The notes below the pieces were generated by a model. It ran no database searches. It worked only from the letters and a program-made list of their open reading frames with translations, and had not been told where the DNA came from. A stretch of 64,000 bases of DNA from Microglena sp. YARC (lineage: Eukaryota; Chlorophyta; Chlorophyceae; Chlamydomonadales; Chlamydomonadaceae). Location: assembly GCA_022414725.1 (NCBI GenBank), contig CM039464.1, positions 25,820,950 through 25,884,949 on the forward strand. The letters are read 5' to 3'. Position 1 is the first letter of the stretch; the number at the start of each line of letters is the position of its first letter. The position numbers and the translations under genes were made by a program. Below are positions 9,036-64,000 of this stretch, one piece after another.

Positions 9036-9690
9036 ACAAGCACTCACATCCCCCCCCCCCCCCCCCCCCCAGTTTTTGTATTATCAAAATCTGAAATGGT
9101 ACTTCTATTCCCTAGCTACAATGATGGTTTCAGGCGCTCCCACACTACAGCCTAATCGCCACACTGTCGTACTGCTCCCGCGCGCCGCACGGCCCTGCCC
9201 GCAACAGCCCGAAGCTCTGAAGCCGCACCTCCAGGGAGCCGCTTTAAGAGCTTTCTATAGCTATAAGCATTTGGGGCATGTTGGGGGGACAAAAGCGAAT
9301 TTACTAATTTCGCTCACCGCTTTAAACGGTGGCCGTCCAAACTAGCCGAGATCGCTATGGTATAATAGCCTAATCGCGTGGAAATAAAAAATAGAAATAC
9401 TCCAGTGGGCCGACTCCCCGCGCCCCCCCCCACCACCCACTACACCCCCAGCCTCTCCTCTCTTTGCTCCCATGTTTGTAGTTACCCTTCACAACCAGCC
9501 AACACCAACACTCATATAACGCTCGCCAGACGCAGATTTTTAAGTATGTTGCATTCTCAAACATCTCGGCGGGCGTGCAACCGGTCTTCGCAGACGCTTG
9601 ATTTTGAAACCGGTTTGCGAAATCAAGCCATTTTTGAAAGTTATTTTGTATGAGTTGAAATCGGGAAACGGGCGGTTGCATCCGGAAAGC
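9036..9690. other. Unassigned region with short open frame
   Basis: It contains a poly-C run (about 9051-9070) and an open stretch of 112 codons (9007-9345, plus strand) without recognisable motifs. I do not call a gene here. It could hold an upstream exon of the plus-strand gene or an old transposon. Confidence 0.3.
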
Positions 9691-12648
9691 CAGCCATCGG
9701 GCACACACACACCCTTCCCCACCCCCCCACACAAACATCCTCACATCCCCTCCCTCTCTCCTCCCTTTTTGCAGTGCAAAACCCCTTCACCAACACCAAA
9801 TCACACACACACTCAACACAACTCCCCCCCCCCTTCCCACCCCCGTACACACAGCAGACTCACATCCCCTCCCTCCTACCTCCAATGTTTTCATGACCCC
9901 CTTCACAACGACCAAATCCACACAACACACACTCATACACACACTCCACCCCCCCCCCACCCTCCTCCCCCCCCACACCCGCCCCCTCCCTTTCCACCCC
10001 GCACACACACACACACTCACAGTCCCCCTCCCTCCTACTCCATTTTCCAATCAAGTGAACCCCCAAAACAACACCATATCTCACACCACTTACGCTCACA
10101 GACTTCACATCCCCTCCCTCCCCCCTCCTCCCTTTTGCTGTGAACCCCTTCACAACACACAATCTCACACACTCACATTCAGCAGCATCGCTCACATCTA
10201 AACCCCCCCCTGACTCCTCCATCATCCCTCTTTGCAGTGAGCCCTTTCAAGAGCACCATCCACACACAGCAACCACACACACAAAACACAACCCCCCCCA
10301 CACTACGCTCATACACACACTACATACCACAACCCCGCACACACACACTCATACACACACACATACACAACCCCGCCACACACACACTCATACACACCAC
10401 ATACACAACCCCGCACCACACACACACGTCATAGGCACACACACATACACAACCCCGCGACACACACACTCATACACACACGACACATTTTACACAACCC
10501 GCACACACACACTCATACACACACACTCATACCACACATACACAACCCCAACCGCACACACACACTCATACACACACACACCATACAACAAACACCGCAC
10601 ACACACACTCATACACACACATACACAACCCTGCACACACACACGCATACACACACACATACACAACCCCGCACACACACACTCCATACACACACCACAA
10701 CCCCGCACACACACACTCATACACACACACATACACAACCCCGCACACACACACACTCATACACACACATTAACACAATCCCCGCACACACACACATACC
10801 ACATACCACACACATTACACAACCCGCCGCACGCACACACTCATACACCACACACATACACAACCCCACAACACACACAACACAACCAACACACACACTC
10901 ATACACACACACACTATACACAACCCGCACACACACAATCATACACCCACAGACTCCCACCCCACCCCTCCTCCTCTTCCTCCTCCTCCTTTAGCAGTGA
11001 GCCCCTTTGCACTCACACAACCACACACATACAAACCCCACACAGCACACCATACACAACCCCGCCACACTACCACAGCTCACACAACCCATGTCAACCC
11101 CGACACACACAATCATACACACACACAGACTCCCCACCCACCCCCTCTCCTCTTCTCACTCCTCCCTCTTACAGTGAGCCCCTTTGCCACCACCACCACC
11201 ACCACACATAACAAAACCCCGCACACACACACAACACAAATACACAACCTGAAATACAAACCCTGCACACACTTCACCCACCCCACCCACCCCCTCCTCC
11301 TCTTACCTCCTCCTCCCTCTTAGCAGTGAGCCCCTTTGCAACACCAACTACACACACAACCCACAACCCCGTACACACACACTCATACACACACATACAC
11401 AACCCCGCACACACACACTCATACACACACACAGACTCCCCACCCCACCCCCTCCTCCTCTTCCTCCTCCTCACCCTTCCCTCTTCAGCAGTGAGCCCCT
11501 TTGCCAACACCAACCACACACACACACATACACAACCCCACACACACACACTCATACACACACACACAGACTCCCCATCCCATCCACCCCACCCCCTCCT
11601 CCTTCTCCTCCTTTCCTCCCTCTAGCAGTGAGCCCCTTTGCAACACCAACCACACATAGACACATACACAACCCCGCACACACACACTCATACAAAACCC
11701 GCACACACACACTCATACACACACACATACACAACCCTGCACACACAACGCATACACATCACACACACACATACACAATCCCCGCACACACACACTCATA
11801 CACACACACACACAACCCGCACACACTCACACAGCACGCACTACACTCAACACACACACATACGCAACCCCGCACACACATCACACACACACCCCCGCAC
11901 ACACACACTTCATACACACACACATACGCATACCACACACATACACAACCACACACACACACACACACACATCATACACCGCCTCACACACGACACAGAC
12001 TCCCCACCCCACCCCCTCCTCCTCTTCCTCCTCCTCCCTCTTAGCAGTGAGCCCCTTTGCAACACCAACCACACACACACACATACACAACCCCGCACAC
12101 ACACACACACTCATACACACACACAGATTCCCCACCCCACCCCCTCTCCTCCTTTCCTCCTCCTCCTCCTCCCTCTTAGCAGTGAGCCCCTTTGCAACAC
12201 CAACTACACACACACACATACACAACCCCGCACACACACACTCATACACACACATACACAACCCCGCACACACACACTCATACACACACACTAGACTCCC
12301 CACCCCACCCCCTCCTCCTCTTCCTCCTCCTCCTCTTTAGCAGTGAGCCCCTTTGCAACACCAACTACACACACACACATACACAACCCCGCACACACAC
12401 ACTCATACACACACACACAGACTCCCCATCCCATCCCACCCCACCCCCTCCTCCTTCTCCTCCTTTTCCTCCCTCTTAGCAGTGAGCCCCTTTGCAACAC
12501 CAACCACACATAGACACATACACAACCCCGCACACACACACTCATACACACACAGACTCCCCCCAACCCCACCCCACCTCCTCCTCCTCCTCCCTGATAG
12601 CAGTGAGCCCCCTTAGCAACACCCACACACATACATACACGCACAGAC

Positions 12649-12684
<36 letters not shown>

Positions 12685-13313
12685 TCCTCATCCTCATCCA
12701 CATCATCCCTGTGAACCCCTTCGCAATACCAACCACGAAGCAACAACATCGGCATACTCTTACACACATACACACACTGGTGCATACACTCGTACACACA
12801 TACGCACACATACACACATGCGTACACACACAGACTCACATCCCCCTCTTCCTCCCTATCTGCAGCGAGCCCCTTCGCAACACCAACCACGCAGCAACAA
12901 CATTGGCATACTCATACACACATACTCATACACACACATACACACACTCATACACACATACGCACACATACACACATGCATACACACACAGACTCACATC
13001 CCCCTCCTCCTCCTGATCTGCAGTGAGCCTCTTCGCAACACCAACCACGCAGGCAACCACACACATACATACACACACAGACTCACACCTCCCTCCTCCT
13101 CCTCCTCCTCTCCTCCTCCTCCTCCTCCTCCTCCTCCTCTCTCCTCCTCCTCCCTGTTTGCAGTGAGCCCCTTCGCAAAACCAACGACACAGCAACAACA
13201 TTGGCATACCCATGCACACCCACACATACACACACAACCACGCACACACTCATACACACAAACACATGCATACACACACAGACTCCCATCCCCCTCTTCC
13301 TCCCTGTCTGCAG
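9690..13313 (+). repeat. CA-rich array with about 20 copies of a splice-acceptor/exon-start motif
   Basis: Units of about 130-170 bp each end in a C/T-rich tract, then GCAG, then TGAGCCCCTTTGCAACACC, then (CA)n with CATACACAACCCCGC sub-repeats. The same tract-AG-TGAGCCCCTTCGCAACACC occurs once more at 13290-13335, where it runs into an open coding-like exon (13314-13522). The array therefore looks like repeated duplication of that exon's 5' edge into the upstream intron. Clear copies sit near 10985, 11170, 11325, 11490, 11627, 12046, 12181, 12342, 12480, 12600, 12865, 13021 and 13161. Confidence 0.8.
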
Positions 13314-13522
13314 TGAGCCCCTTCGCAACACCAACCACGCAGCAACAACTTTGGCACACGCGATGCGATCCGATGCATCCCCCTACATCACCGACCGCTC
13401 CAGGACCCCCTTGGGCAATACTCCTACTCTTCCCCAGGCCCCCCTAATATCCAGTGCCCCCACCACCCCTACACATGCCACCACCACCACACGCTGGGGG
13501 GGCGTGGTGCCTAAGACAGCAG
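13314..13522 (+). CDS. Exon of the unrecognised plus-strand gene
   Basis: A pyrimidine-rich tract and CAG precede 13314, and a GT donor follows 13522. The 209-nt frame is open (SEPLRNTNHAATTLAHAM, then a Thr/Pro-rich stretch, ending VVPKTAG). It ends in phase 1, matching the mini-exons. Its acceptor edge is copied about 20 times upstream. Confidence 0.6.
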
Positions 13523-13925
13523 GTCAACTGGGGGGTGAGGTTTCTCCCATCGGCCCTGTTAACCACCCACAGAGTGCGCGCACCCTAGTAGGTAAGGAGC
13601 AGTGCAATGGGGGGGGAAGGGGGGGGGGGGGGGGGGGTCCACATCACACAAACACTACACACACACACCCACCAATGCATGCACGCACCCTAGTGGGTAA
13701 GGAGCAGTGCAATAATGAGTTTGATGATGATAGTTAAATTTTCGTAGTTCCAGGTATAACAGGTCTACCCTGGGGTGGGCTTTCTCCCATTAGCCCGGTG
13801 AACCACACACATAGTGAATGCACCCTAGTAGGTGAGGAGCAGTGCAACAGGGGGGAGGGGGGGAATTCCACAACACACACTCACCAATGCATGCACGCAC
13901 CCTAGTAGGTAAGGAGCAGTGCAAT

Positions 13926-13959
<34 letters not shown>

Positions 13960-14953
13960 CCTCAACACACAAAATATTCCCCCACACACACGAAACCAAT
14001 GCATGCACGCTCCCTAGTAGGTAAGGAGCAGTGCAATGGGGGGGGGGGATTCCACAACACGCAAACACTTCACACACACACACACCAATGCATGCACGCA
14101 GCCTAGTAGGTAAGGAGCAGTGCAATAATGATGATGATGATGATGATAGTAGCATTTTGTGTGGATCCAAATGTAGCAGGTCCACCCTGGGGTGAGTTTT
14201 CTCCCATTGGCCACCCACACAGTGCAATGATGGGATTCTACAACACACAGATACTACCACACACACACAAATGCATGCACCCTAGTAGGTAAGGAGCAGT
14301 GCAATACTGATGATGATGATGATAGTTACATTTTTCGTGGTTCCAAATGAAGCAGATCCACCATGGGGCTTTCTCCCATTGGCTCTGTGAACCACACACA
14401 GAGTGCACGCAACACACAAACACTACATACACATACACATACACATACACACCAATGCATGCACGCAGCCTAGTAGGTAAGGAGCAGTGCAATGATGATG
14501 ATGATGATAGTTACATTTTTTGTGGTTTTAAATGTAGCAGGTCTACCCTGGGGTGAGCTTTCTCCCATTGGCCACCCACACAGTGCAATGATGGGATTCT
14601 ACAACACACAGATACTACCACACACACACCAATGCATGCATGCAGCCTAGTAGGTAAGGAGCAGTGCAATAATGATGATGATGATAGTCACATTTTTCGT
14701 GGTTCCTAATGTAGCAGGTCAACTGGGTAGTGAGCTCTCTCCCATTGGCCCTGTGAACCACCCACAGAGTGCACGCACCCTAGTAGGTAAGGAGCAGTGC
14801 CATGGGGGGGGGGGGGGGGGGGGGGATTCCTCAACACACAAAATATTCCCACACCCACCCACACGAAACCAATGCATGCGCACACCCTAGTAGGTAAGGA
14901 GCAGTGCCAATGGGGGGGGGGGGGGGGGGAGGAGATTCCTCAACACACAAACA

Positions 14954-14988
<35 letters not shown>

Positions 14989-17882
14989 AATGCATGCACG
15001 CAGCCTAGTAGGTAAGGAGCAGTACAATGGGGGGGGGATTCCACAACACACAAAAAATATCCCCCCACACACACATGAAACCAATGCATGCGCACACCCT
15101 AGTAGGTAAGGAGCAATGCAATGGGGAGGGGGATAGATTCCCTAACACACAAAATATTATACACACACGCACACACACACACACAAAAAACCAATGCACG
15201 CACCCTAGTAGGTAAGGAGCAGTGCAATGGGAGGGGGGGGGGGGGATTCCTCAACACACACACATACCAATGCATGCACTCACCCTAGAAGTTTAGGACC
15301 AGTGCAATGGGGGGAAGGTTAACTATGATCTTTAACCTCTCGCACACCTTCCAACATCCCACAGGACGTGACCTCACTCGCCTGGGACGCTCTTGGGCCA
15401 CCACAACAACAACAGCAGGTCTACCACACCCCTTGTTTGATGATAACTGCGATCTTCACCCACACCCAAACCTGCCCACATCCCAAAGGACGTGACCTCA
15501 CACGCCTAGGACGCTCTTGGGCCACCACAACCACCACCACCACATCAGGTATACCACAACCCGTCTTTGAAGATAACTATAATCGTCACCCACACCCACA
15601 CCTTCCCACACCCCATAGGACGTGACCTCACACGCCTAGGACGCTCTTGGGCCACCACAACCACCACCACACCAGGTCAACCACAACCCGCCTTTGAAGA
15701 TAACTATAATCGTCACCCACACCCAAACCTTCCCACACCCCATAGGACGTGACCTCACACGCCTAGGACGCTCTTGGGCCACCACAACCACCACCACACC
15801 AGGTCAACCACAACCCGCCTTTGAAGATAACTATAATCTGCACCCACACCCACTCCTGCCCACACCCCATAGGACGTGACCTCACACGCCTAGGACGCTC
15901 TTGGGCCACCCCAACCACCACCACCACATCAGGTCTACCACACCCCGTCTTTGAAGATATCTATAATCGTCACCCACACCCACACCTGCCCACACCCCAT
16001 AGGACGTGACCTCACACGCCTAGGACGCTCTTGGGCCACCCCAACCACCACCACCACATCAGGTCTACCACACCCCGTCTTTGAAGATATCTATAATCGT
16101 CACCCACACCCACACCTGCCCACACCCCATAGGACGTGACCTCACACGCCTAGGACGCTCTTGGGCCACCCCAACCACCACCACCACATCAGGTATACCA
16201 CAACCCGTCTTTGAAGATAACTATAATCTGCACCCACACCCACTCCTGCCCACACCCCATAGGACGTGACCTCACACGCCTAGGACGCTCTTGGGCCACC
16301 ACAACCACAACAGCAGGTCTGCCACACCCCGTGTTTGAAGATAACTATGATCTTCACATGTGCAGGTCAGTGGGTTGGTATGGTATTAGTCATACTGTTA
16401 TGGTATTAGTCATATTAGTCTTCACATGCACAGGTCAGTGGGTTGGTATGGTATTAGTCATATTAGTCTTCACACGCGCAGGTCAGTGGTTTGGTATGGT
16501 ATTAGTATATGGTATAATATTAGTATATGGTATATAATATTAGGGTTATGGTATATGGTATATGGCATGGCATGGGTTATGGTATATGGTATATGGTTAG
16601 GCATTATTAGGGTTATGGTAAGGTAATATTAGGGTTATGGTATATGGTATATGGTATGGCATTATTAGGGTTATGGTATATAATATTAGTATATGGTATA
16701 TGGTATGGTATTAGTATATGGTATATGGTATAATATTAGTCTTCACATGCGCAGGTCAGTGGGTTGGTATGGTATTAGTCATATTAGTCTTCACGCGCGC
16801 AGGTCAGTGGGTTGGTATGGTTCATATGGTATAAGTGAAAGGGTTGGTATTGTTGGGGAAAAAGTAGTTTTGCTGGTGCGCTGGGGGGCAAGGGGATAGG
16901 GCATGTAAATTAAGGCTTGGGGGTGGGGATAGGGCATGTGCTTTAGAACTTGGGGGTGGGGCAAGTGCCTTAGGGGTTGGGGGTAGGGTAAGGGGATATA
17001 GCACATGCATAATAATTTGGGGGTGATGCATTTGCCTTAGGGGTTGGGGATAGGGCAAGAGGATAGGGCATGTGCATTAGAATTTAGGGTTAATGCATTT
17101 GCCTTAGGGGTTAAGGATAGGGCAAGGGGATAGGGCATGTGCATTAGAACTTGGGGGTAGTGCATGTGTCTTAAGGGTTGGGGTTGGTTAGTTTGGTTGT
17201 GAGAACCCCCGGAAGCAGGAAAGAGTCCCTATAATATGGGCCGGAAGTGCTTTTATTTTTGGCAGAGCCCCCCTTTCTAGGGGGCAAGAGCCCCAAGATT
17301 CACCCCATTGTCCGTCTGTGTGTCCGTCCGACTGACGACGACTGAGACGAAGGCTGACACGTCAGCCAACTGTCTCACAACTAACTGGCTTCTCGGTCAG
17401 CTCCATCGTTGCCACCTGTCGTTCCATTGCCAACACTCTCCGCCAATTTTCCGCGTCGCTTGCAACACTGCATAGGACTTTTTTTAGCTACGTCTAGCAG
17501 CTTCCATCCAGCCCCTGTGGTCCACGAGGAAAACGTGGTGTCCGATTGGTGAATGTATTGGGTCATGTGCGTCATACACCACAGCCCTATTAGCCAGCCA
17601 TTGGGACAGGCCCAAAGCATTCAGCTGCATTTGGATGCCTACGATGAAGTTTTTGGGTGCTCTAGCTGGCTTCAATTCTGGCTCAAGGATGATAAAAGGG
17701 AGCTACTTGGAAGCTGTTACATGTAGCCAGAAAACAAAAAAGGGGCCGGCAGGCAAGTGGGAACACAGAATAGATGACAGATACACAGAAAACGACATAC
17801 GGACAGGCAAACAGACAAGCAGAAAGGCAGACAGACAGACAGAAAGGGAGACAGATAGATAGACAGACGAGTAGACAAACAA

Positions 17883-29303: not shown

Positions 29304-29363
<60 letters not shown>

Positions 29364-29652: not shown

Positions 29653-29715
<63 letters not shown>

Positions 29716-49288: not shown

Positions 49289-49329
<41 letters not shown>

Positions 49330-49541
49330 GCATCATCAAGCACCCAGAAAAAGTAGAAACAACAGCAAGCAAACAGTATCAGCAACAGCAGGCACCGAGC
49401 AACAATAGAAACAGCATTGCATCATCAAGCACCCTGAAGCATTCACATCTTTAACTCAACCCCCGACAAGGGAAATACAAGGGTGGGTGTAAGTATTCAT
49501 AGTAGTATAAGTGGTAGAGATATTAATTGCAACAGTAGGAT

Positions 49542-49574
<33 letters not shown>

Positions 49575-49992
49575 GCATATTCAAGCACCCTGAAGCATTC
49601 ACATCTTTAACTCAACCCCCGACAAGGGAAATACAAGGGTGGGTGTAAGTATTCATAGTAGTATAAGTGGTAGAGATATTAATTGCAACAGTAGGATCAG
49701 CAGCAGCAGCAGCAGCAGCAAGCATATTCAAGCACCCTGAAGCATTCACATCTTTAACTCAACCCCCGACAAGGGAAATACAAGGGTGGGTGTAAGTATT
49801 CATAGTAGTATAAGTGGTAGAGATATTAATTGCAACAGTAGGATCAGCAGCAGCAGCAGCAGCAGCAGCAAGCATGTTTAAGCACCCCTGAGCATTCACT
49901 CTTTAACTCAACCCCGACAAGGGAAATACAAGGGTGGGTGTAAGTATTCATAGTAGTATAAGTGGTAGAGATATTAATTGCAACAGTAGGAT

Positions 49993-50037
<45 letters not shown>

Positions 50038-50616
50038 GCATATTCAAGCACCCTGAAGCATTCACATCTTTAACTCAACCCCCGACAAGGGAAATACAAG
50101 GGTGGGTGTAAGTATTCATAGTAGTATAAGTGGTAGAGATATTAATTGCAACAGTAGGAACAGCAGCAGCAGCAGCAGCTTCAGCAGGAAGCACCATCAA
50201 GCACCCTGACGCATTCACGTGTTTACCTCCACGCCTGACACAATAGGAAGGTGAATCAGGCTTAAAGAAGTAATGATAACGCCTGGTTGGGCGTGGTATT
50301 AAGGGACCCCTGTCCTACGGCGGTAGGGAACGAGCTGCTAATTTACCTGGACAAAGCTACCATGGCAGTTGACAGCTACTGCGAACACTTAAGCTTACCC
50401 GTAGGAATTTGAACCCCGCACCTTCTTTTTTCAACGAGCTCTACCATTGAGCCATTCGTCGAAACGGGATAGAGTGAATATGATTAGATATCATTGAGAA
50501 CCTACCTCAATACAACACATCCCCTAGCCACCAATCTACCTCAACAAAACACAACCTCAGCTACTAACTCTCTCTCTCCAACCAGCTACCAACCAGCTAC
50601 CAACCAGCTACCAACC

Positions 50617-50672
<56 letters not shown>

Positions 50673-50719
50673 CGCATTCACCAACCTACCCGACCAAACA
50701 AAACTACCTCTATACAACC

Positions 50720-50756
<37 letters not shown>

Positions 50757-51337
50757 CCCCCCACACACACACATTCACCTACCTACCTACCTACCCGGAC
50801 CAAACAAACCAACCCACCTCAAAGCCGCGGTCTTGTTGATGCCCAGAGTCCACAACGGGAGGTATTTCATCGTCTCTGGGAAGATGAGCTTGTTGGGTGC
50901 TCGTGCAGCACTGCTTCCGTTCATCAGTCGGAACTCCTTCAGGGCCGCCTGCATACACGTTTGTGTGTGTGTGCTTGTGTGTTTGTGTGGTGTGTGTGTG
51001 CTTGTGTGTGCTTATGTGTGCATGTGTGTTTCTGTGTGTGTTTGCCGTGCTGCTTCCGTTCAACAGTCGGAACTCTTTCAGGGCAGCCTGCATACACGTT
51101 TTTTTTTTTTTGTTTGTTTGTGTGCGTGTGTTTGTGTGTTTTTTGTTTGTGTGCGTGTGTTTCGGTGTGTGTGTGTTTGTATGTGTGTGTTTGTGTGTTT
51201 TGTGTTTGTGTTTGTGTGCGTGTGTTTGTGTGTGTGTTTGTGTGCGTGTGTTTGTGTGGGTGTTTTGTGTGCGTGTGTGTTGTGTGTGTGTGTGTTTGTG
51301 TGTGTGTTTGTGTGTGTGTGTGTTTGTGTGCGTGTGC

Positions 51338-51375
<38 letters not shown>

Positions 51376-54300: not shown

Positions 54301-57300
54301 TTGCACTGGGAACACTCAACACGACTGTGATGATAACGCCTGGTGGGGCGAGTGCATGCATTGGTGTGTGTGTGGAGTGGTGGTGATAGGGGTGGGGTGC
54401 AGGGGGGATTGTGTGTGTGTAGGCAGTCTGTGTTGTACAGCCCCCCCCCCCCCCCCCCCCCCCCACAACCCCGTCCCTATTGTGCTGCTCCTTAACTACT
54501 GCGATGAGTGCATGCATTGGTGTGTGGTGTGCGTGGGGTAGTCCCTGTGTTGTGTGTGAATCCCTTAGGTGATTATGGTCATATCTGGTTTAGGGTAGCT
54601 GTATATCATCGTGCTGCTCCTTGACTACTAGGGTGAGTGCATGCATTGGTGTGTGTGTGTGGTGTGTGTGTGGTTTGTGTGTGTGTGGTGTGTGTGTGGT
54701 TTGTGTGTGTGTGGGTAGTGTCTGTGTTGTGGAACCCCCAAGGTGATAATGGTCATAACTGGTCTAGGGTAGTTGTTACAGGCTGTTGGACCACATTGGT
54801 GGTAAAATGTGACTTGGCATGGAGCTAATGGAGTGATCGAAAAAGTTATGATAACGCCTGGAGGGGCGTGGTTTTAAGGGAGCCCTGTCTTACAGCGGTA
54901 GAGAACGGGCTGCTACTTTACCTGGGCAGTGCCACCATGGTGGTTGACAGCAACGGTGAACACTAAAGCGCACCTGTAGGGATTCGAACCCAGCACCTTC
55001 TTGTATCTATGAGCTGTACATGACTTGGTGAGGAGTGTGAAGCCAAGCCAACAATTCATTATGATGCACATGACTTGGTGAGGAGTGTGAAGCCAAGCCA
55101 ACAATTCATTATGATGCGCATGACTTGGTGAAGAGTGTGAAGCCAAGCCAACAATTCATTATGATGATGCGCATGACTTGGTGAAGAGTGTGAAGCCAAG
55201 CCAACAATTCATTATGATGATGCGCATGACTTGGTGAAGAGTGTGAAGCCAAGCCAACAATTCATTTATAAGGCGCACCTGATGCGCATGACGGCCTCCC
55301 ATGCTGTGGGTCGTGTCAGGTTGTGCACAATCTCGTTGTGAAGCTTTTCGCTGTCACGGGCTGCGTTGAATCCTGGGTAGTAGTACAGCTGCGCAGGGCA
55401 AAGTGTTGAGTTAATTGATTTGTGTGTGGATGGGAGGGTGGGGGGCAGAGGGGAGCAGGGGTGGTGGGTGATCTGTCTCAAAGTCGGGGTAGTAATACAG
55501 CTGCGCAGGGCAAAGTGTCGAGTTGATGGATTTGTGGGTGGATGGGTGGGGGGCAGAGGGGTGCAGATGGGTGATCTGTCTCAAAGTCGGGGTAGTAATA
55601 CAGCTGCGCAGGGCAAAGTGTTGCATTGATGGAGTTGTGGGTGGATGGGTGGGGGGCAGAGGGGGGCAGATGGGTGATCTGGCTTAAAGAGTGGGTGGGG
55701 TAAAGTGTCAAGTTGATGGATATAGACCAGGGTACTTCCAAGCGCGCGCTTTTGCGCGCTGCCTTTTTGAGCCCCACTGCGCTTTTCGCGAAGTTTTTTG
55801 CAACACCCCGTGGGCGCAGCAAGCAATTTTTGCGCTTTTTGCACCACAAAGCGCAGTTTTTTTGTTTACTAGTGCGCTAAAGCGCTGGCCAATTTGGTCA
55901 ATGGAAGTACCCTGATATAGAGTAGTATGGCTTTGTATGCGTCCTTGCATTTGTAGCTGTATGGCTGTCTTGTGTGAGGGGCATGGGCAGTAACACACGT
56001 GTGTGGGGCAAAGTGATATGCTGATGGATTTGTGGGTGGATGGGTGGGGGGCAGAGATCTGTCATTAAGACAGGGTAGTGATACAACAGCGCGGGGCAAA
56101 GTGACAGGTTGATGGATTTATACTTTTGGGTGGATGGGTGGGGGGCAGAGATCTGTCTTAAAGACAGGGTAGTGATACAACTGCGCGGGGCAAAGTGACA
56201 AGGTTGATGGATTATACTTTTGGGTGGATGGGTGGGGGGCAGAGATCTGTCTTAAAGACAGGGTAGTGATACAACTGCGCGGGGCAAAGTGACAGGTTGA
56301 TGGATTTGTACTTTTGGGTGGATGGGTGGGGGGCAGAGATCTGTCTTAAAGACAGGGTAGTGATACAACTGCGCGGGGCAAAGTGACAGGTTGATGGATT
56401 TATACTTGTGGGTGGATGGGTGGGGGGCAGAGATCTGTCTTAAAGACAGGGTAGTGATACAACTGCGCGGGGAAAAGTGACAGGTTGATGGATTTATACT
56501 TGTGGGTGGATGGGTGGGGGGCAGAGGGGTGCAGGGTCGGAAGTTGGGGGGACGGGGAAATTGATGCCAGCGACGCCAAGTCCCATGTTCTGGCGGACTT
56601 GTCACAAACACATCGACCAATGACATGCACCCTGCTACACACACCTACATCCACACACGCATCTACACCCACACAGCTACATCCACACACGCATGTTCAC
56701 CCACACACCTTCATCCACACACGCATGTACACCCACACACCTACATCCACACACGCATGTACACCCACACACCTACATCCACACACGCATCTACACCCAC
56801 ACACCTACATCCACCCACCCACCCCAATCACAAACCTATCCACATGTAGAGCAAGGAATGGAAGCCAGCAACGCCAAGTCCATATACTGCTAGCTTGTCA
56901 CTAACACATCGACTGTGATCTGAACCGGGCTGCACTCCAAACCACACACACGCATCTAAACCCACACCAACACACCTACACACACATCCCCACCCACCCA
57001 CCCCCTCACCAACCTCTCCAAATGTGAACCGGGGAATTGATGCCAGTGAGGCCAAGTCCATGTATTGCGAGTTTATCACAAACACATCGACCATGACATG
57101 CACCCTGCTACACACACCTACATCCACACACGCATCTACACCCACACACCAACACCCACCCCCATCACAAACCTCTCCACAAGTGAAGCGGGGAATTGAT
57201 GACAGCGACGCCAAGTCCATATACTGAGAGCTTGTCACAAACACATCCCCCCCCACACACACACATACCCCCCCCCCCCCCCCCCCCCCCCACACACACA

Positions 57301-60300
57301 CACCCACAAATCACTAACCTCTCCACTCGTGAAGCGGGGAATGGAAGCCAGCGACGCCAAGTCCATATACTGCTTGTCACAAACACATCGACCGTGATCA
57401 GATCCCGGCTGCACTCCGACACCCCTACACACATAAGGAGTATCGCATCTAAAATAACCTACACCCACACACCTACACACGCATCTACGCCCACCCCTGC
57501 CCCCATCACTAACCTCTCCACACGTGAAGCGGGGAATTGATGCCAGCGACGCCAAGTCCATATACTGCGAGCTTGTCGCAAACACATCCACCGTGATCTG
57601 AACCCGGCTGCACTCCGAGGCAAAATTCTTGAAGAACATATCCTCGGGGTTTCGCAGAGTGGGCTCCCTCTCAGTTCCGTACCACTGCGCCATCTCGCGG
57701 TTTTTCACCTTACCGGGGCCGGCGCTGGCAGGGCTGCTCTGGGAAAAGAAGCAGCTTGCCAACCGGACGTGGTTCATCACCATGTAGGCGGACCTGGGGG
57801 GGGGTGGAGGGGTGGAGGAGGGGGGCGTGGGTGGAAGTGAGTGTGTGTGTGTTGGGGGGAGGAGGGGGGACGTGGGTGGAAGTGGTTGGAAGGTGGGTGT
57901 GGGTTGGGTTTATGGCGACAGTATTCTGGAAAAGAAGCAGCTTGCCGCCAAACGTGGTTCATCACCATGTAAGCAGACTGGGTAGGGTGAAGGGGTGGGT
58001 GGAAGTGGTTGGAGGTAGATTAGTGGTTGGGTGTGGGTGGTTGGGATGTGGGTGTAGGCAGACTGGGTGGGGTGGAGGGGTGGTGGAGGAGGGGGTGGAC
58101 GTGGAATTGGGTGTTGGGGGGTGGAGGGGGTTGGGTTGGGGTGGGGGTGGGGTGGGGGTGGAAATGGTTGGAGGGGGGTTAGTGGGTTGGATGTGGGTGT
58201 GGTTGGGTTTATTACGACACTATTCTGGAAGAGAAGCAGCTTTGCCACTGACGTGGTTCATCAGACCATGTAGGCGGATTGGGTGGAGGGAGTAAAGGGG
58301 TAGAGGAGGGGGGCGTGGGTGAAAGTGGGTGAGTGGGTGTGTGTGTGGGGTAAGGTGGGGGTGAGGAGGGTGGGGGGGGGGGGGGGGGGGGGGGGCTGGG
58401 TGGAAGTGGTGGAGGGGGGTAGTGGTTGGAGGTGGAGGTGGGTGTGGGTTGGGTTTATGGCGACATATTCCGGAAGAGGAGCAGCTTGCCATCGACGTGG
58501 TTCATCACCAGTAGGCGGACTGGGGTAGGGTGAAGGGGTGGGTGGAAGTGGTTGGAGTAGATTAGTGGTTGGGTGTGGGTGGTTGGATGTGGGTGTAGGC
58601 AGACTGGGTGGGGTGGAGGGTGGAGGAGGGGGTGGACGTGGTGGTGGTTGGGGGGGTGGAGGGGGTGGGTTGGGTGGGGGGTGGGGGTGGAAATGGTTGG
58701 AGGGGGGTTAGTGGTTGGATGTGGGGTGTGGGTTGGGTTTATTACAAACACTATTCTAGAAAGAGAAGCAGCTTGCCACTGACGTGGTTCATTCACCATG
58801 TAGGCGGATTGGGTGGAGGGGTAAAGGTAAAGGGGTGGAGGAGGGGGGCGTGGGTGAAAGTGGGTGAGTGGGTGTGTGTGTGGGGTGGGGTGGGGGTGGA
58901 GGAGGGTGGAGGGGGGGGGGGCGTGGGTGGAAGTGGGTGGAGGGGGGGTAGTAGGTTGGAGGTGGAGGGTGGTGTGGGTGGGTTTATGGCGACACTATTC
59001 CGGAAGAGGAGCAGCTTGCCATCGACGTGGTTTCATCACCATGTAGGCCGGACTGGGTGGGGTGGAGGGGTGGAGGATGGTGTGGGTGGGTGGTGTGCGT
59101 GAGAGAGAGGTGTGGTGTGTGTGTGTTGTGTGTGTGTGTTGTGTGTTGTGTGTGCTGTGTGGGGGGGGTAGTGGTTGGAGGTGGGTGGTTGGGTTGGGCT
59201 TATTAACAGCACTATTCCTGGAAGAGAAGCAGCTTGCCAACGTGGTTCATCACCATGTAGACGGACCTGGGTGGGGTGGAGAGGGGGGGGCCCCGTGGGT
59301 GAAGTGTGGTGAGTGTGTGTGGTGGTTGGTGGTGGAGGGGAGGGCGTGGGTGGAAGTGGGTGGGAAGTGGGTGGTGGAGGGGTAGAGGGGTGGAGGAGGG
59401 GGGGCGTGGTGGATGTGGGGTGGGTGGAGGGGTGGGTGGGGGTGGAGGGGTGGAGGAGGAGGGGTGGGTGGAGTGTGTGTGTGTGTTTGTGTATGTGGTG
59501 GGGGGTGGGGGTGGTGGTGCGAGGGGGGGGGATGTGGACTGGTAGGTTGGGTAGATGTGGGAGGCGGGGGGGTGGGGGGTGCGGTGGGGGTGGAGGGGGG
59601 GTGGACGTGGGTGTAGGTGGGTAGATGTGGGTGGCCGGGTGGGAATGGGGGTAGGGGGATGGGGCACGTGGGAGGGGGTGGGGGACATGGGTGTAGGTGG
59701 GTAGATGTGGTGGCGGGTGGGGATGGGGGTGGGGCGTGGGAGGGGGTGAGGACATGGGTGTAGGTGGGTAGATGTGGGTGGCGAGGGTGTGTGTGGGGGG
59801 AAGGGGTGTAGGTGGTAGAAATGAGGGTGGCGGGGTGGGGGGTGGGGGGGGTGGGGTGAGGGGGTGGGGTCGTGGGTGTAGGTGGGTAGATGTGGGTGGC
59901 GGGTGGGGGGGTGGGGGTGGGGGTGGGTGGAGGGGGTAGGATTGTGGATGTAGGTGGTAGCATTGGGTGGCGGGTGGGGTGGTGGGGGTGGGTGGAGGGG
60001 GTGGACGTGGTGTAGGTGGGTATGTGGGTGGCGGGGGTAGGGGGTGGAGGGGTGGGGGATGTGGATGAGGTGGGTAGATGTGGGTGGGGGGTGGGGACGT
60101 GGTTGGAGGGGGGGTGGGGGGACGTGGGTGTGGTGGGTAGATGTGGGTGGCGGTGTGTGTGTGGGGGGGGTGGGGACGTGGGTGTAAGTGGTTGGATGTG
60201 GTAGGCGGGACGTTAAGTTGTAGACTCCTTATTTTTTTAAATTCCAACATCGCGGTATATGAAGTAAACATTCCTGGACCTCCGCCACCGGCCTCCACGA

Positions 60301-63300
60301 CCCCACCCCCACACCCCACGTCCCATGCAGCTGTCCACCTGCGCGTATCAAAATTTGTTTTAAATCCAAAAGTATATTAAACAACTGCTCCCTGGAGCCC
60401 CTGCCAGGTTTCACCACCACTCAGCGACATGCTAACAGTGTTTTTAAAATAATTTTTATACTACCCTAACCTTAAGAGCAGGTCCCATGCAGCTGTCCAC
60501 CACTTGCGAGCTTGGCTGCTTTACCACTACACAAGTAGATGCCATACCATTTTTGAAGTTCTTACTTCCCCCTACCTCACTACCTTACCTACCTACAACT
60601 AGCCCCCACAAACCTTTGGCCCTACCTATCTACCACCTAACCCCATAAAACCTTACAACCCACGTCCCACCCCCTGCACCTCACCGCACCCCATCCAACT
60701 AACGAGCCACCTCCACCCACCTTCACCCAAACTGAAAAAGTAAATAAACCACAAACAGTTTCCCTGGACCATACTAGCCCTAAAGGCCCTTTTCAGTGAT
60801 ATTACAATGGGTCTAGTGTAGACCCAGAATTCGCTCGACGATGAAGAGTCGGGGGTTCAAATCCCCCTTCGTCGCTCCTTGGCGTTGCATGGTCCGTTGC
60901 GACCGGCGAAAAGTAGAGAATAGCCTGTCCAGTTGAGGTAGGAGACCGTCCCACCCGCGTACAACGGGCTCCCTTAACACCCAAAAAAGCCCCCCACCAG
61001 GCGTTTATGATTCCTCCCTACTTAGCGCCCCTACCCTTTTTAAAAAAAAAGCCGCAGGTTCCCCATGCCAATAAAAACCTGTTCCCCACCACTTTGTTGG
61101 GGGGGGAAAAAGCTTTTTTTGCAATACCATTGTGAGGGAAAGGGAGTCCCAAAGCCAGCCCAATATTCAAAGACTCCCCCTTTTTTTTAAAATCCCCCCA
61201 AAAATATAATAAAAAAACAAAAACAGTTCCCCTAAAAACAAACAGCCCCCTAAACAAACAACAACCGCAACCCATTTAAAAACAAACAACAAACCGCAAC
61301 CCATTAAAAAACAAAACTTGCTCTCTGGACTCCACCAGCTTTTCCAACCACCAACCAAAAAGGACAATGCTATACAAAGTGGGCAGTAAAAAAGCAATTA
61401 AAAAGTGTGGGAAGTGAGGTGTTTGTGTTTTAATTTTTTTCTACTTGCGCTACCTTAAGAAGGCAGGTCCCATGCAGCTGTCTCCCACTTGCGAGCTTGG
61501 CTTGTTTTTTTATTTACCACTAACAGCAAGTTACTTAGTTTTTTTTACCACTAAGTAAAGTTTACTTTTAGTTTTTTTACCACTACAGGTAAGGTTACTT
61601 AGTTTTACCACTAAGTAAGTACTTTAGTTTTACACTACAGCAAAGTACTTAGTTTTTTTACCACTACAGTAGTAACTTTAGTTTTAAAGCCACTACAGTA
61701 AGTAACTTAGTTTTACCACTACAAGTAAGTAACTTAGTTTTTACCAACTACAGTAAGTAACTTAGTTTTTAAACGCACTACAGTAAGTACTTTTTTACCA
61801 CTAAGTAAGATGCATACCAATTTTTAAGTTCTACTAGCCCTACCTTTTAAACTACCTCACGCTACCTACACTAGCGCCACAAACTTGCTGCCTACCTACA
61901 CGAGCCCACAAGCTCATACATACCCATACCCAGCCCTACTACCTACCTACCTACTACCATGACTAGCCCATACACTAGCCCTACTTCAGACAGGTCCAAT
62001 CAGCTGTCCACCATTTGGGAGCTTTGCATACATGGTAGGAAAGGGAGTAACTATAATATAAAACTAACAGTCAGGTAAATATATATAAAACTAACAGTCA
62101 AGTAATTATATAAAACTAAACAGTCCAGTAAATATATATAAAAACTAACAGTCAGTAAATATATATAAAACTAACAGTCCAGTAATATATATAAAACTAA
62201 CAGTTCAGTAAATATATATAAAACTAACAGTCAGTAAATATATATAAAACAAACAGTCAGTATATATATATAAAACAGACCAGTAGCAAAAATAAACAAC
62301 AACAGCAACCCTGGACTCCATCCAGCTTTCTACCAGCCCGTACCTTTAGAGGGCAGGTCCCATGCAACTGGTGCACATCACTTGTGAGATTGCATACATG
62401 GAGGGGAAGGCTTCCAGCAGATATCAAAGACTCTTTTTTAAAATCCCCCAATATAATAAAAACAAACAGTAATAAAAAAGCAGTATTAAAAAACACAGTA
62501 TAAAACAACAGTATAAAAAACAACAGTATGAAAACAATCAGTCCCGAAAACAATGTAATAAAACATCAGTATAAACAAAGCAGTATAAAAACAAACAGTA
62601 TAAAAACAAACAGTATAAAACAAACGGTAATAACACAAAACAGTAATGAAACAAACAGTATAAAACAAACGGTATACAAACAAACAGTACGAAAACAAAC
62701 AGTATAAAAACAAACAACAAACACAACGCCTGGACTCGCAGCTTTCTACTAGCTGTACCTTTAGAGCAGGTCCATGCAAGCTTGTCCACCACTTGTGAGC
62801 TACATACATGGAGGGGAGGGAGCCAGCAGCGTGTCAAAATTCAATTTTTGAATTCCCAAATCCTACAAATATATAAATAACAATTCCTGGACTTTGCCAG
62901 CTTCACCACGCACCAGGACATGCTATAACCAATTTTAGGCTTCCTACTAGCTGTAACCTTTTAGAGCAGGTCCCATGCAGCTGTCCACCACTTGCGATTT
63001 TGCATACATGGAGGGGAGGGAATCCAGCAGCGTGTCAAACAACTCCCTGGACTCTGCAGTATACCACAGGTCCTCCGGTAGGAGAGGGATGAAAGGGGTC
63101 GCTACAAGCTCTGTCCACCACCATCCATTTTGGGGCGCCGTCAGCCAGACTTTAGGTGTAGAGTGGAATGGCGCTGCGGGAATTCGGGTTGGTGGGTGAG
63201 GTGGCGGGTTGGTGGTAGGGGGATGTGGGGTTGGGCGGGTTGGGTGGTAAGGGGTTGGGTGGGGTTGGGCGGGTTGGTGTGGAGTCCTGTGTGTGGGGGG

Positions 63301-64000
63301 GGGGGGGCTGAGGTAGAAAGGGATTGAGGGGTCCTCCAAGCTCTGTCCACCAACCATCCATTTGGGGCGCCGTCAAGCCAGACTTTAGGTTGTAGAAGTG
63401 GATGGCGCTGCGGGGAATGGGGTATGGGTGGTAGTGGGCGGGGTTGGTGGGTAGGGGGGTTGGGTGGGGTTTGGGCGGGGTTTGGGTGGGTAGGGGGTGG
63501 GTGGGGTTGGCGGGGTGGTGGTAAGGGGGTTGGTGGGGTTGGGACGGGTGGTGTGGAGTCTGTGTGTGGGGAGGGGGGGGGCGGAGGTAGAAGAGGGTTG
63601 AGGGGTCCTCACAGCTCTTGTCACCACCTCAATTTGGGGCGCGTCAAGCCAGACTTTAGGTTGTAGAAAATGGATGGCGCTGCGGGAATGGGGTTGGTGG
63701 GTGAGGTTTGGGCGGGGTTGGTGGGTAGGGGGTTGGGTGGGGTGGGGCCGGGGTTGGGGTGGGTAGGGGGTTGGGTGGGTTGGGCGGGGTGGGTGGTAAG
63801 GGGTTTGGGTGGGGTTGGGCGGGGTTTGGTGTGAGTCTTGTGTGTGGGGAGGGGGGGGGCCGGAGGGTAGAAGAGGGATTGAGGGTCGCTCAGCTAGCTC
63901 TTGTCACCCACATCAGTTGGGGGGCCTTCAAAGCCAGACTTAAGGTTGTAAGAAGTGGAATGCGCTGTGGTATGGGGTTGGTGGGTGAGGTGGGCGGGTT
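44537..64000 (-). CDS. SEC24: SEC24 COPII coat subunit, C-terminal nine exons (5' end beyond window)
   Basis: Exons in transcript order: A 62958-63173, B 57514-57793, C 55279-55388, D 53541-53741, E 52853-53012, F 50818-50948, G 49024-49109, H 48091-48409, J 44537-44719 (TAA). They give about 560 residues. A-C cover the trunk domain (AIHFYNLKSGLTAPQ, SAYMVMNH, SSQYMDLASL, LYYYPGFNAARD, TAWEAVMRIR). D and early E cover the beta-sandwich (RSTDLLALPTCDPDKAFA). E-G cover the helical domain. H-J cover the gelsolin-like domain (SDQGAYLMDNGRVFILWLGR) and the typical end VLPYFVEDRSQATASY. SEC24 selects cargo for vesicles leaving the endoplasmic reticulum together with SEC23 and SAR1. Splice phases agree from B to F and from H to J. 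Exons A, B and G carry small indels. Confidence 0.93.
44730..46320 (-). repeat. TGTAGTGTGTCG minisatellite in SEC24's last intron
   Basis: About 1.6 kb of degenerate GTGTCGTAGTGTGTTGTAGT repeats on the plus strand. Confidence 0.9.
46720..48090 (-). repeat. Four direct copies of SEC24 exon H's 3' half
   Basis: Copies lie at about 47845-47985, 47608-47735, 47352-47490 and, more diverged, 46725-46870. Each repeats CTTGGACATGGGCGACTCCC (plus strand) through GGCCCACTCCTTGTGCAGC, that is WLGRMLHKEWATE to ARESPMSK with the GT donor. Spacers of about 100 bp are C/CA-rich. All lie downstream of exon H. Confidence 0.92.
48091..48409 (-). CDS. SEC24: SEC24 exon H (gelsolin-like domain)
   Basis: 106 codons plus one base: LIYPSLYPLHDPSGNWGM, a Gly/Ser insert, then LSDQGAYLMDNGRVFILWLG, then DPSQLSVEPARESPMSK. 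Acceptor CACGTAG, donor GTGGGA. Confidence 0.95.
48410..48860 (-). repeat. GGGCAGATGGTGAGTGGTGT satellite
   Basis: About 15 units of 20-26 bp directly upstream of exon H, in SEC24 intron G-H. Confidence 0.88.
48882..48972 (-). repeat. Decoy copy of SEC24 exon G
   Basis: It repeats nearly all of exon G with the GTGAGCC donor (GACAAGCGGCTCACC on the plus strand), but the acceptor region differs. It lies downstream of the true exon. Confidence 0.85.
49024..49109 (-). CDS. SEC24: SEC24 exon G, with small indels
   Basis: GGSKDV is followed by a shifted stretch, then AVAHEIM and a further shift. Family expectation and the neighbouring copies imply an 81-nt exon; this one is 86 nt. Acceptor TTGTCAG, donor GTGAGCC, and phases fit F and H. 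Confidence 0.78.
49130..50235 (-). repeat. 150-bp units: amplified exon G acceptor edge plus CAG microsatellite
   Basis: Five units of about 150-175 bp contain CATTCACATCTTTAACTCAA then CCCCGACAAGGG on the plus strand. This is a mutated copy of exon G's acceptor and first codons (KDVNA). (CAG)n runs of 7-15 units and GTAGTATAAGTGGTAGAGAT accompany it. A sixth copy at about 50205-50250 keeps the CAG acceptor. Confidence 0.88.
50262..50462 (-). mobile_element. tRNA-derived SINE, family B
   Basis: On the minus strand it starts near GAATGGCTCAATGGTAGAGC, then GGGGTTCAAATTCC, and ends ACGCCCAACCAGGCGTTATC. It is related to 20155-20365 and sits in intron F-G. Confidence 0.7.
50600..50775 (+). repeat. 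CT microsatellites
   Basis: Two (CT)n runs (about 50620-50664 and 50722-50754) follow four copies of AACCAGCTACC. Confidence 0.9.
50818..50948 (-). CDS. SEC24: SEC24 exon F
   Basis: 43 codons plus two bases: AALKEFRLMNGSSAARAPNK, then LIFPETMKYLPLWTLGINKT. Acceptor ATGCAG, donor GTGGGT. It belongs to the helical domain. Confidence 0.94.
50949..51640 (-). repeat. SEC24 intron E-F: GTGTTT satellite with two exon-F acceptor copies
   Basis: Copies of exon F's start (TCGGAACTC(C/T)TTCAGGGC on the plus strand, then GCCTGCATACACG) lie at about 51046-51098 and 51571-51625, separated by 0.45 kb of (GTGTGTTT)n. Confidence 0.9.
51660..51865 (+). repeat. Dispersed repeat family 2
   Basis: It matches 17260-17480 (GGCGGAGCCCCC, TTGTCCGTCCGAC, GCGTCGCTTGCGACGCTGCA). 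Confidence 0.6.
51955..52290 (+). repeat. GGCAATGAGGTCATG minisatellite
   Basis: Units of GGTCATGCCAGCTAGGCAAT and GAGGTCATGGTTGCAG are repeated about 12 times. Confidence 0.92.
52460..52852 (-). repeat. Four copies of SEC24 exon E's donor edge
   Basis: CACCTGCATACGYGACTGCA then GCACATTGCGAGTTT (plus strand) occurs near 52465, 52580, 52678 and 52766. It encodes RNVLQSRMQ with the GTGGGT donor and is separated by (CCCA)n. The copy at 52465 extends about 80 nt into the exon. Confidence 0.92.
52853..53012 (-). CDS. SEC24: SEC24 exon E
   Basis: 53 codons plus one base: VHTMAVPVVNDLADLYRGCD, then MLAKLSVEKSLTSRLDETRN. It completes the beta-sandwich and opens the helical domain. Acceptor GTCCAG, donor GTGGGT. 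Confidence 0.95.
53170..53460 (-). repeat. Two copies of SEC24 exon D's donor edge
   Basis: Copies at about 53198-53275 and 53368-53455 repeat CAGCTTGCA...GTGCGCACTGCAC and CCTGATCCTGCGCTC (plus strand), that is VQCALLYT...ERRIR with the GT donor. They lie downstream of exon D. Confidence 0.9.
53541..53741 (-). CDS. SEC24: SEC24 exon D
   Basis: 66 codons plus three split bases: CSKGLRVSSFHGHFFNRSTD, then LLALPTCDPDKAFAVQIALE, ending YTSSFGERRI. Acceptor CACCCAG, donor GTACGC. Confidence 0.95.
53825..54280 (-). repeat. Three copies of SEC24 exon D's acceptor edge
   Basis: Copies at about 53833-53885, 53960-54085 and 54180-54275 (plus strand AAGAAATGGCCGTGGAAGGA, CTTGTCGGGGTCGCAGGTGG). They lie upstream of exon D; the first two keep an ACCTGGGTG acceptor. 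Confidence 0.92.
54335..54720 (-). repeat. Reverse-orientation relatives of the 13.5-15.3 kb repeat
   Basis: GAGTGCATGCATTGGTGTGT occurs three times, twice after a TGCTGCTCCTTNACTACT block. This is the reverse complement of the AATGCATGCACGCACCCTAG unit. It lies in the sense direction of SEC24, as the other array does for its own gene. Confidence 0.75.
54838..55015 (-). mobile_element. tRNA-derived SINE, family B (5' truncated)
   Basis: On the minus strand it has GGGTTCGAATCCC (T-arm/B box), then AGGTAAAGTAGCAGCCCG and ACGCCCCTCCAGGCGTTATC. Confidence 0.68.
55018..55278 (-). repeat. Satellite of about 52 bp, five units, with SEC24 exon C end in its core
   Basis: The unit is CATGACTTGGTGAGGAGTGT then GAAGCCAAGCCAACAATTC. 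ATGATGCGCATGAC is shared with the donor edge of exon C (AVMRI), which follows immediately. Confidence 0.8.
55279..55388 (-). CDS. SEC24: SEC24 exon C
   Basis: 36 codons plus two bases: LYYYPGFNAARDSEKLHNEI, then VHNLTRPTAWEAVMRI. Acceptor GCGCAG, donor GTGCGC. Confidence 0.95.
55400..56550 (-). repeat. Array of about nine copies of SEC24 exon C's acceptor edge
   Basis: The unit of about 95-110 bp on the minus strand has CACTTTGCCC(C/T)GCGCAG then TTGTATCACTACCCTG, reading LYHYPVFKTD in diverged copies and LYYYPDF in the two nearest. Spacers are CCACCCATCC-rich. A hAT-like MITE interrupts the array. Confidence 0.92.
55728..55914. mobile_element. hAT-like MITE, copy 2
   Basis: 187 bp with 13-bp terminal inverted repeats CAGGGTACTTCCA / TGGAAGTACCCTG and 8-bp flanking repeats ATATAGAC / ATATAGAG. 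No coding capacity. The TIR start and 8-bp duplication fit the hAT superfamily. Confidence 0.8.
56530..57420 (-). repeat. Five copies of SEC24 exon B's 3' part
   Basis: Copies at about 56555-56635, 56826-56945, 57012-57105, 57168-57250 and 57316-57420 repeat GCGACGCCAAGTCCATATAC and TTGTCACAAACACATCGACC on the plus strand, that is DVFVTSSQYMDLASLASIPR with a GTTAGTGAT-like donor. All lie downstream of exon B. Confidence 0.93.
57514..57793 (-). CDS. SEC24: SEC24 exon B (trunk domain)
   Basis: 93 codons: SAYMVMNHV, then PGKVKNREMAQWYGTEREPT, FFKNFASECSRVQITVDVFA and SSQYMDLASLASIPRFTCGE. Three single-base insertions between about 57740 and 57775 turn an expected GGKLLLFQ into another reading and then restore the frame. 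One extra G sits at the acceptor. Confidence 0.9.
57900..59265 (-). repeat. Copies of SEC24 exon B's acceptor edge (about seven)
   Basis: Units near 57930-57985, 58060 (short), 58215-58285, 58465-58520, 58760-58812, 58995-59055 and 59210-59268 repeat AGAAGCAGCTTGCC...ACGTGGTTCATCACCATGTA (plus strand), that is SAYMVMNHVGGKLLLFQ. They are separated by GGGTGGAAGTGG-rich spacers and lie upstream of exon B. Confidence 0.92.
59270..60230 (-). repeat. GGGTGTAGGTGGGTAGATGTGGGTGG-type satellite
   Basis: About 1 kb of G/T-rich tandem repeat, intronic. It produces very long proline-rich open frames on the minus strand that I regard as non-coding. Confidence 0.88.
60300..62957 (-). repeat. Diverged copies of SEC24 exon A's 3' part in AT-rich, error-like sequence
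   Basis: GGTCCCATGCAGCTGTCCAC then CACTTGCGAG (plus strand; SQVVDSCMGPALK) recurs near 60315, 60475, 61460, 61990, 62350 and 62765. Several copies have CCTGGACTC...CAGC and GTACCTTTAGAGCAGG (donor CTAAAG|GTAC). Between them lie TTACCACTACAGTAAGTAAC (61500-61810) and ATATATAAAACTAACAGTCA (62050-62280) repeats and AAAAACAAACAGTAT repeats (62450-62720). A SINE sits at 60795-61012. Confidence 0.85.
60795..61012 (+). mobile_element. tRNA-derived SINE, family A (plus strand)
   Basis: GGTCTAGTGTAGACCCAGAA and GGGGGTTCAAATCCCCC form the tRNA-like head. The body has CCTGTCCAGTTGAGGTAGGA and the tail CACCAGGCGTTTATGA. Confidence 0.72.
62958..63173 (-). CDS. SEC24: SEC24 exon A (trunk domain), with small indels
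   Basis: Frames read APQNGWWWTELVATPFIPLL, then PEDLWYTAESRELFDTLLDS and LPSMYAKSQVVDSCMGPALK. The first part (expected AIHFYNLKSGLTAPQ) is scrambled by indels, but a neighbouring copy at 63335-63412 carries it intact. One extra A precedes the donor compared with its own copies. Acceptor CCGCAG. Confidence 0.88.
63174..64000 (-). repeat. Three copies of SEC24 exon A's acceptor edge
   Basis: Copies at about 63335-63412, 63610-63692 and 63893-63975 repeat the CCGCAG or CCACAG acceptor and AIHFYNLKSGLTAP. Units of about 280 bp are separated by GGGTTGGGCGGG-rich spacer. They continue to the right edge. Confidence 0.9.

Follow-up and report, generated by a model that had tools for sequence, protein, structure and literature searches.

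Direct partial copies of exon edges in the introns of a chlorophyte alga and their resemblance to amphioxus mirages

Described systems and the algal locus

Minisatellite-like direct tandem repeats that span intron-exon boundaries, at either end of the exon, have been described in amphioxus as 'mirages' (PMC3087553). They are documented in the Adh3 gene and in the globin genes BflGb6 and BflGb9, with units of 10-72 bp in Adh3 and of 150-160 bp in the globins; the units of BflGb6 are 81-100% identical to each other, AG and GT are kept in many, not all, of the copies, and the repeats are unstable in length while splicing is undisturbed (PMC3087553). In a potato gene, a tandem duplication crossing the boundary became a new intron, and the duplicate is spliced there as a new intron plus exon, as backed by RNA (PMC4974935). 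In Chlamydomonas and Volvox, the density of tandem repeats is highest in introns, where the repeats crowd toward the intron ends; exon bases within them are not mentioned in the part of that survey cited here (PMC3887541).

The first-pass annotation of the DNA analysed in this study held that no described system matches its exon-edge copies, but the amphioxus mirages (PMC3087553) and, in its crossing of the boundary, the potato duplication (PMC4974935) were already on record. By their repeat and splice-site features, taken from the DNA of one assembly, the copies in the alga appear to belong with the mirages: 58 of them are direct tandem units spanning a junction with at least 12 bases on both sides, both ends of exons are affected (9/19 acceptors and 12/18 donors), and AG or GT is present in many, not all, copies (28/44 acceptor and 18/24 donor copies). 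They differ from the mirages in that the host is a green alga and that about two fifths of the sampled exon edges, in several gene families, are copied, against a handful of genes in amphioxus. Unlike the potato duplicate, the copies here appear to remain inside the old intron. The host, a chlorophyte with a 568-Mb assembly, and the scale look new; no green-algal report of exon-edge copies was found among the matches listed, subscription journals lying largely outside the scope of the search.

The window, by which we mean the whole 64-kb stretch analysed (C3:25820950-25884949 of the assembly), includes the genes for hybrid cluster protein (HCP) and SEC24 (Table 1). Their exons were located by tblastn with green-algal homologues, and the splice sites were then taken from the sequence. 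Green-algal homologues were listed for the exon translations of both genes, and the named nuclear matches at the top of the homology lists are largely green algae. HCP and SEC24 terminate at stops (TAG and TAA) about where the homologues terminate, which speaks for the standard genetic code. The model of a further gene, on the plus strand, was drawn by eye without homologues. No RNA gene was detected in the window by Rfam at gathering scores or by the ARAGORN tRNA scan.

The window also carries other repeats. Four arrays of a 26-bp satellite (CATATGCTAAGCATAGCATATGCCAT), with 6-7 copies each and about 1.5 kb apart, lie at 21000-26510; together with other repeats at the same spacing, they probably form a tandem of about four 1.5-kb units, which ends a short way beyond the stop codon of HCP, on its downstream side. 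The 3' end of HCP includes CATATGCTAAGCATA. A run of long frames on the plus strand (490-7600) includes one with a stretch resembling, by eye, an RNase H motif, which we take to be possibly part of a non-LTR retrotransposon. The tRNA-like stretches at 18344-18490 and 20165-20250, in which A- and B-box-like motifs were recognized by eye, are possibly SINEs.

Single-base indels were seen by eye in strongly conserved coding sequence of SEC24 (57700-57790 and 63100-63175); three of them lie near 57750, where the three extra bases fall in the stretch that the homologues have as VGGKLLLFQ. At least one more was seen by eye in the coding sequence of HCP exon H2. The SEC24 indels are probably assembly base errors. 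Matches to rbcL occur on contigs C996, C1833, C2356, C2018, C2110 and C764; four of them score equally and have no stops, and several have many in-frame stops, which suggests that the assembly includes plastid contigs that are redundant or were left unpolished, or else plastid-derived nuclear copies. In a homology search with rbcL that gave at least 120 matches, none of those listed was above 91% identity, the nearest named alga among them being Batophora at 89%. In view of the indels in conserved coding sequence and the stop-rich rbcL-like matches, the base quality may be uneven. This could distort the copy numbers and identities given below, but would not produce diverged, one-sided copies in several genes.

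Exon-edge copies in HCP, SEC24 and the plus-strand gene

We aligned each junction of HCP and SEC24 locally with the introns, using a 120-base query and counting an edge as copied when at least one copy included at least 12 exon bases. By this measure, 21 of 37 exon-intron edges have a direct partial copy in the adjoining intron, on the predicted side in all 9 of the 19 acceptors (H3, H6, H8, SA, SB, SC, SD, SF and SG) and all 12 of the 18 donors (H2, H5, H7, H9, H10, SA, SB, SC, SD, SE, SG and SH) concerned. Copied 5' edges sit upstream and copied 3' edges downstream, in direct orientation, and none of the 71 junction tests in the two genes gave an inverted copy. The arrangement is that reported in the first-pass annotation, and its list of edges for the two genes is recovered as well, provided that its HCP exon numbers run one higher than ours. 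Matches in the opposite-side intron were obtained for 6 of 34 edges (H7, H10, SD, SE, SF and SG; exons of 52-201 nt), because the 120-base query extended into sequence that had been copied from the other edge of the same exon; all six are correct-side copies of that other edge, those of H7 and SG being near-whole-exon copies downstream. With probes of the terminal 60 exon bases (score of at least 32), 17/38 edges had a direct copy on their own side (6/20 acceptors and 11/18 donors; scores 34-110) and 2/38 on the opposite side (H7 and SG, short exons whose probes coincide or overlap). No inverted match reached this score in 76 probe searches, the top score never exceeding 30.

Table 1. Genes and copied exon edges in the window (positions of the 64-kb stretch; copies refer to the named exon)
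Feature	Position	Strand	Basis
HCP (hybrid cluster protein) gene, exons H1-H11	26662..37999	-	prismane matches, tblastn, splice sites
H2 donor-edge copies, 3, with 24-29 exon bases each	36563..36863	-	junction alignment
Period-55 array, 22 more copies of a 19-base stretch taken from near the 3' end of H2	34260..35580	-	array and 19-mer matches
H3 acceptor-edge copies, 10, with 10-20 exon bases	35677..36448	-	junction alignment
H5 donor-edge copy	31981..32030	-	junction alignment; 63-bp array
H6 acceptor-edge copies, 2, with 38 exon bases	31655..31891	-	junction alignment
H7 near-complete copy, donor present, no acceptor AG	30262..30360	-	junction alignment
H8 copy, exon bases 9-52 only, no AG	30125..30168	-	junction alignment
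H9 donor-edge copy	29193..29291	-	junction alignment
H10 donor-edge copies, 2	28076..28272	-	junction alignment
SEC24 gene, exons SA-SI, 5' part outside the window	44537..63173	-	tblastn with algal SEC24, splice sites
SA acceptor-edge copies, 3, with 97 exon bases each	63312..63999	-	junction alignment
SA donor-edge copies, 6	60317..62838	-	junction alignment
SB acceptor-edge copies, 8	57925..59347	-	junction alignment
SB donor-edge copies, 5, with 79-105 exon bases	56553..57419	-	junction alignment
SC acceptor-edge copies, 8, with 14-15 exon bases	55487..56536	-	junction alignment
SC donor-edge copy	55096..55177	-	junction alignment
SD acceptor-edge copies, 3, with up to 120 exon bases	53831..54272	-	junction alignment
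SD donor-edge copies, 2	53194..53447	-	junction alignment
SE donor-edge copies, 2; one more starting near 52803	52455..52716	-	junction alignment
SF acceptor-edge copies, 2	51050..51662	-	junction alignment
SG acceptor-edge copies, 6, with 25 exon bases	49439..50240	-	junction alignment
SG donor-edge copy	48871..48943	-	junction alignment
SH donor-edge copies, 4, with 57-125 exon bases, 84-98% identical	46699..47977	-	junction alignment
Plus-strand acceptor edge, 14 occurrences, the last (13310) presumed real	10234..13360	+	pattern matching
Plus-strand donor edge, 14 occurrences, the first (13591) presumed real	13591..15232	+	pattern matching
Complete 54-60 nt exon, 8 copies, each with AG and GT, periods 124-130	15365..16316	+	pattern matching

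The number of copies per edge, put at 1 to about 25 in the annotation, proved correct, the end of exon H2 having 25 matches within one intron (up to 3 mismatches in 19 bases). For the same 19-mer there was no inverted match in that intron and no match elsewhere in the window, and 100 mononucleotide shuffles gave 0.0 matches on average. The exonic limit tends to be common to the copies of one edge, as in arrays (the three copies of the SA acceptor each have 97 bases, and the eight of the SC acceptor 14-15), and is more varied at other edges, such as the SA donor, with 23-82 bases. Recognizable junction-derived copies account for 6,216 of the 26,573 intron bases of HCP and SEC24, and 2,949 of these 6,216 bases are exon-derived. 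Many intronic minisatellites contain exon bases, with junction-spanning units at both exon ends, and they lengthen the introns, as the annotation proposed.

In the plus-strand gene, the repetition of one acceptor edge and one donor edge was confirmed within the limits of the by-eye model. Its third array (Table 1) is of another kind: all eight copies of the short exon have a length that is a multiple of three as well as both splice dinucleotides, the third listed reading frame is open in all eight, and the first contains a stop in seven. Tandem exon duplication repeats a complete exon with both splice sites and keeps the frame. The eight-copy array looks like such a whole-exon duplication and, under this gene model, is alone in doing so, whereas most copies at the locus are incomplete exons with a single splice site and even the near-complete copy of H7 has no acceptor. 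Selection could tolerate the array because the frame is kept, although triplet slippage in the CAC tract accounts equally well for the length differences among its exons.

Copy rates of exon edges and introns, in the window and in other genes

The exons studied outside the window were picked by domain searches blind to the finding. The sample comprises 63 loci, namely 30 chaperonin loci (the best 30 of 64 matches), 29 class I tRNA synthetase loci and 4 loci of an HCP paralogue; they are bounded by the ends of the domain matches, not by true exon ends, and some are close together or overlap. The window's own HCP loci (L001, L003, L004 and L007) were excluded from the genome-wide counts, and two loci with long open frames, possibly intronless (L009 and L014), were retained. 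Copies on the predicted side were found for 52 of the 126 edges (5' edges, 25/63; 3' edges, 27/63), against 4 positives out of 378 in six control categories, all four in the synthetase set. Other genes, on C1-C5, show the pattern too, which thus characterizes the genome as far as the sampled gene sets go. The mode of intron growth put forward in the annotation for the locus holds in that intron length is added, and the pattern extends beyond the locus.

We compared the edges with tiles of intron from which low-complexity tiles had been removed beforehand. In the window, 16/34 edges and 241/522 complex intron tiles were copied (P = 1.0; one intron shorter than 300 bp omitted); the corresponding figures were 17/60 and 225/886 for the chaperonins (P = 0.65), and 30/58 and 414/737 for the tRNA synthetases (P = 0.58). 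In these two large outside sets, more duplicated introns go with more duplicated edges. In the small HCP-paralogue set, the edges were above the background without reaching significance (5/8 versus 36/122; P = 0.11). Own-side copies of 30-base probes became rarer with depth in the exon, from 17/37 at the junction to 10/33 at 30 nt, 5/28 at 60 nt, 1/24 at 105 nt and 0/22 at 120 nt; just inside the intron, 13/27 probes had such a copy. The introns themselves are widely duplicated: of 333 complex intron tiles in the window, 67% are repeated directly within 1.5 kb, against about 3% per side that are repeated in inverted form. A sample of 14 stretches of 4 kb at regular spacing gave 1207 complex tiles, of which 491 had a direct repeat no more than 1.4 kb away and 65 an inverted local one. 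Given this wider local duplication, the junction copies represent the smaller part of the duplications, which by chance extended over the end of an exon.

We therefore consider it highly probable that a pervasive short tandem duplication of non-coding DNA spills over the exon ends, with selection keeping one complete exon. On this view, short tandem duplications would keep arising in the DNA and would mould the introns, the repeat period being mostly below about 200 bp. Where one breakpoint falls in the exon and the other in the intron, two junctions in direct order would result. When an acceptor is straddled, the result would be intron-edge-edge-exon, with the second edge alone joined to the exon and the copy accordingly upstream; when a donor is straddled, the copy would lie downstream. 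The gene can use a copy only if the remainder of the exon is attached to it, and the other copy would therefore become intron. Tandem duplication and the loss of exon-breaking alleles would suffice for the strict side and orientation, so that a mechanism aimed at the junctions would not be needed. Later slippage or unequal exchange may turn some copies into arrays, the stranded exon pieces would decay, and selection would mostly eliminate duplications that extend far into an exon or right through it, with the exception perhaps of a whole exon that keeps the frame. Splicing would still choose the authentic sites, probably via exon definition, a guess made on the ground that the splice site of the other exon end is missing from most stranded edges. 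The ratio of direct to inverted repeats in the introns and the pattern of divergence described below fit this geometry.

A junction-directed process, for example a copying coupled to transcription or splicing that preferentially amplifies exon-intron boundaries, would account for the many affected edges, for the exons copied at both ends and for the higher rate in the HCP-paralogue loci. The concentration of tandem repeats near intron-exon junctions reported for Chlamydomonas and Volvox in the cited part of the survey (PMC3887541) likewise counts against a spill-over. Repeats in the window introns, unlike those of the survey, do not crowd toward the junctions (69, 62, 60, 84 and 55% by distance bin). 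Moreover, the edges show no excess over the intron tiles in the window, the chaperonins or the synthetases, the density of copies declines into the exon without a peak at the junction, and the exon parts span about 10 to 125 bases, which makes a junction-directed process very improbable. The annotation's view of exon edges as a special target of propagation is not sustained, since they are copied at the rate of the adjoining intron in these three sets and ever less often deeper in the exon; the annotation named an absence of enrichment at junctions as a refutation, and in our sample of gene sets no enrichment was seen in the three sizeable ones. Junction-specific amplification is thus unsupported in those sets, with the small HCP-paralogue set higher but not significantly so. 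Seeding by simple repeats at the exonic breakpoints is also weak as a candidate, the sequence next to the exonic end of the copies being of low complexity at 6 of 21 junctions, versus 20% of intron 30-mers.

The sizes of the repeats were counted in loci L009-L083 and in positions 9691-64000 of the window (L001-L008 and the rbcL loci L053 and L054 excluded). The period is below 200 bp in 269 of 422 local arrays; periods below 80 bp are commoner, between 80 and 200 bp the frequency is about constant, and above 200 bp it is lower by a factor of two to three. A peak at 160-200 bp in the counts per tile mostly disappeared once each array was counted once, whereas the drop beyond 200 bp remained. 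DNA of nucleosome or Okazaki-fragment size is comparable to this limit, and the drop hints at duplications arising from DNA of such sizes.

Decay of the copies, their splice sites and implications

The 58 copies that align over at least 12 bases on each side of the junction are contiguous across it, which indicates that unspliced DNA was copied. Their exon parts have a mean identity of 0.90 and their intron parts one of 0.87, the exon part being the better preserved in 37 copies and the intron part in 17 (P = 0.009, which is optimistic because the copies of one array are not independent). A higher identity of the exon parts is expected if the source exon is under constraint and, in the intron, original and copy alike are free to diverge, but the ratio of the two divergences (0.100 to 0.134) is well below the factor of two of the simplest model.

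The splice dinucleotide is present in 46 of 68 copies, as the annotation had anticipated in describing the copies as a supply of decoy sites; 74% would be expected from the identity (P = 0.21). The acceptor copies lie slightly lower (28/44 versus 74% expected; P = 0.12), and the donor copies stand at 18/24. From their sequence, the copied sites may be regarded as many potential decoys, with no sign of retention or purging, and selection for or against them is indistinguishable from neutral decay. It is accordingly hardly probable that the copies are functional, as decoy splice sites or alternative exon ends under selection. The retained dinucleotides would suit such a role, as would the eight complete exon copies with their frame-keeping lengths and open third frame, but the survival of the dinucleotides is about that expected under neutrality, the copy number varies from 1 to about 25, and CAC triplet slippage can yield lengths that are multiples of three.

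False repeats may also arise when noisy long reads are mis-assembled. The by-eye single-base indels in conserved coding sequence (SEC24 near 57750, and H2) and the several stop-rich rbcL-like matches are in keeping with such an artefact, and array copy numbers may be wrong. We regard an artefactual origin of the copies as very improbable, however, because the copies of any one edge have in most cases diverged from the exon by 5-20% and because a recurrence with strict sidedness in other genes on C1-C5 is unexpected from mis-assembly. The spread of exon edges by a mobile element or introner, for which one could cite the abundance of repeats in the genome, can be set aside as extremely improbable: none of 356 junction searches between HCP and SEC24 was positive in the other gene's introns, so that the introner hallmark of the same sequence dispersed in the introns of unrelated genes was not seen there, and a genome-wide search with an 82-base copy of SE, whose sensitivity was limited in that it missed the nearby SE copies, listed nothing beyond the copy and its exon of origin.

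Beyond the spill-over over exon ends, we tentatively suggest, as a possibility that we ourselves find rather doubtful, that introns throughout this genome grow mainly by short tandem duplication, with about two fifths of exon ends carrying one or more stranded duplicates. For annotation, there is a warning in that searches by protein homology call stranded edges exons; the locus L079, beside L075, is probably a stranded edge rather than an exon. Duplications that cross an exon boundary have been proposed as one way in which introns and exons originate, and the prior reports that we found concern few genes per species. A genome with many edge duplicates of varied age would permit tests of how far splicing tolerates them, of how fast stranded edges decay and of how often they are converted to exon or intron. 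If the suggestion is true, the spliceosome of this alga would meet splice sites in duplicate in a large part of the introns, and the genome would keep in store the duplicates from which new introns and repeated exons could be made.
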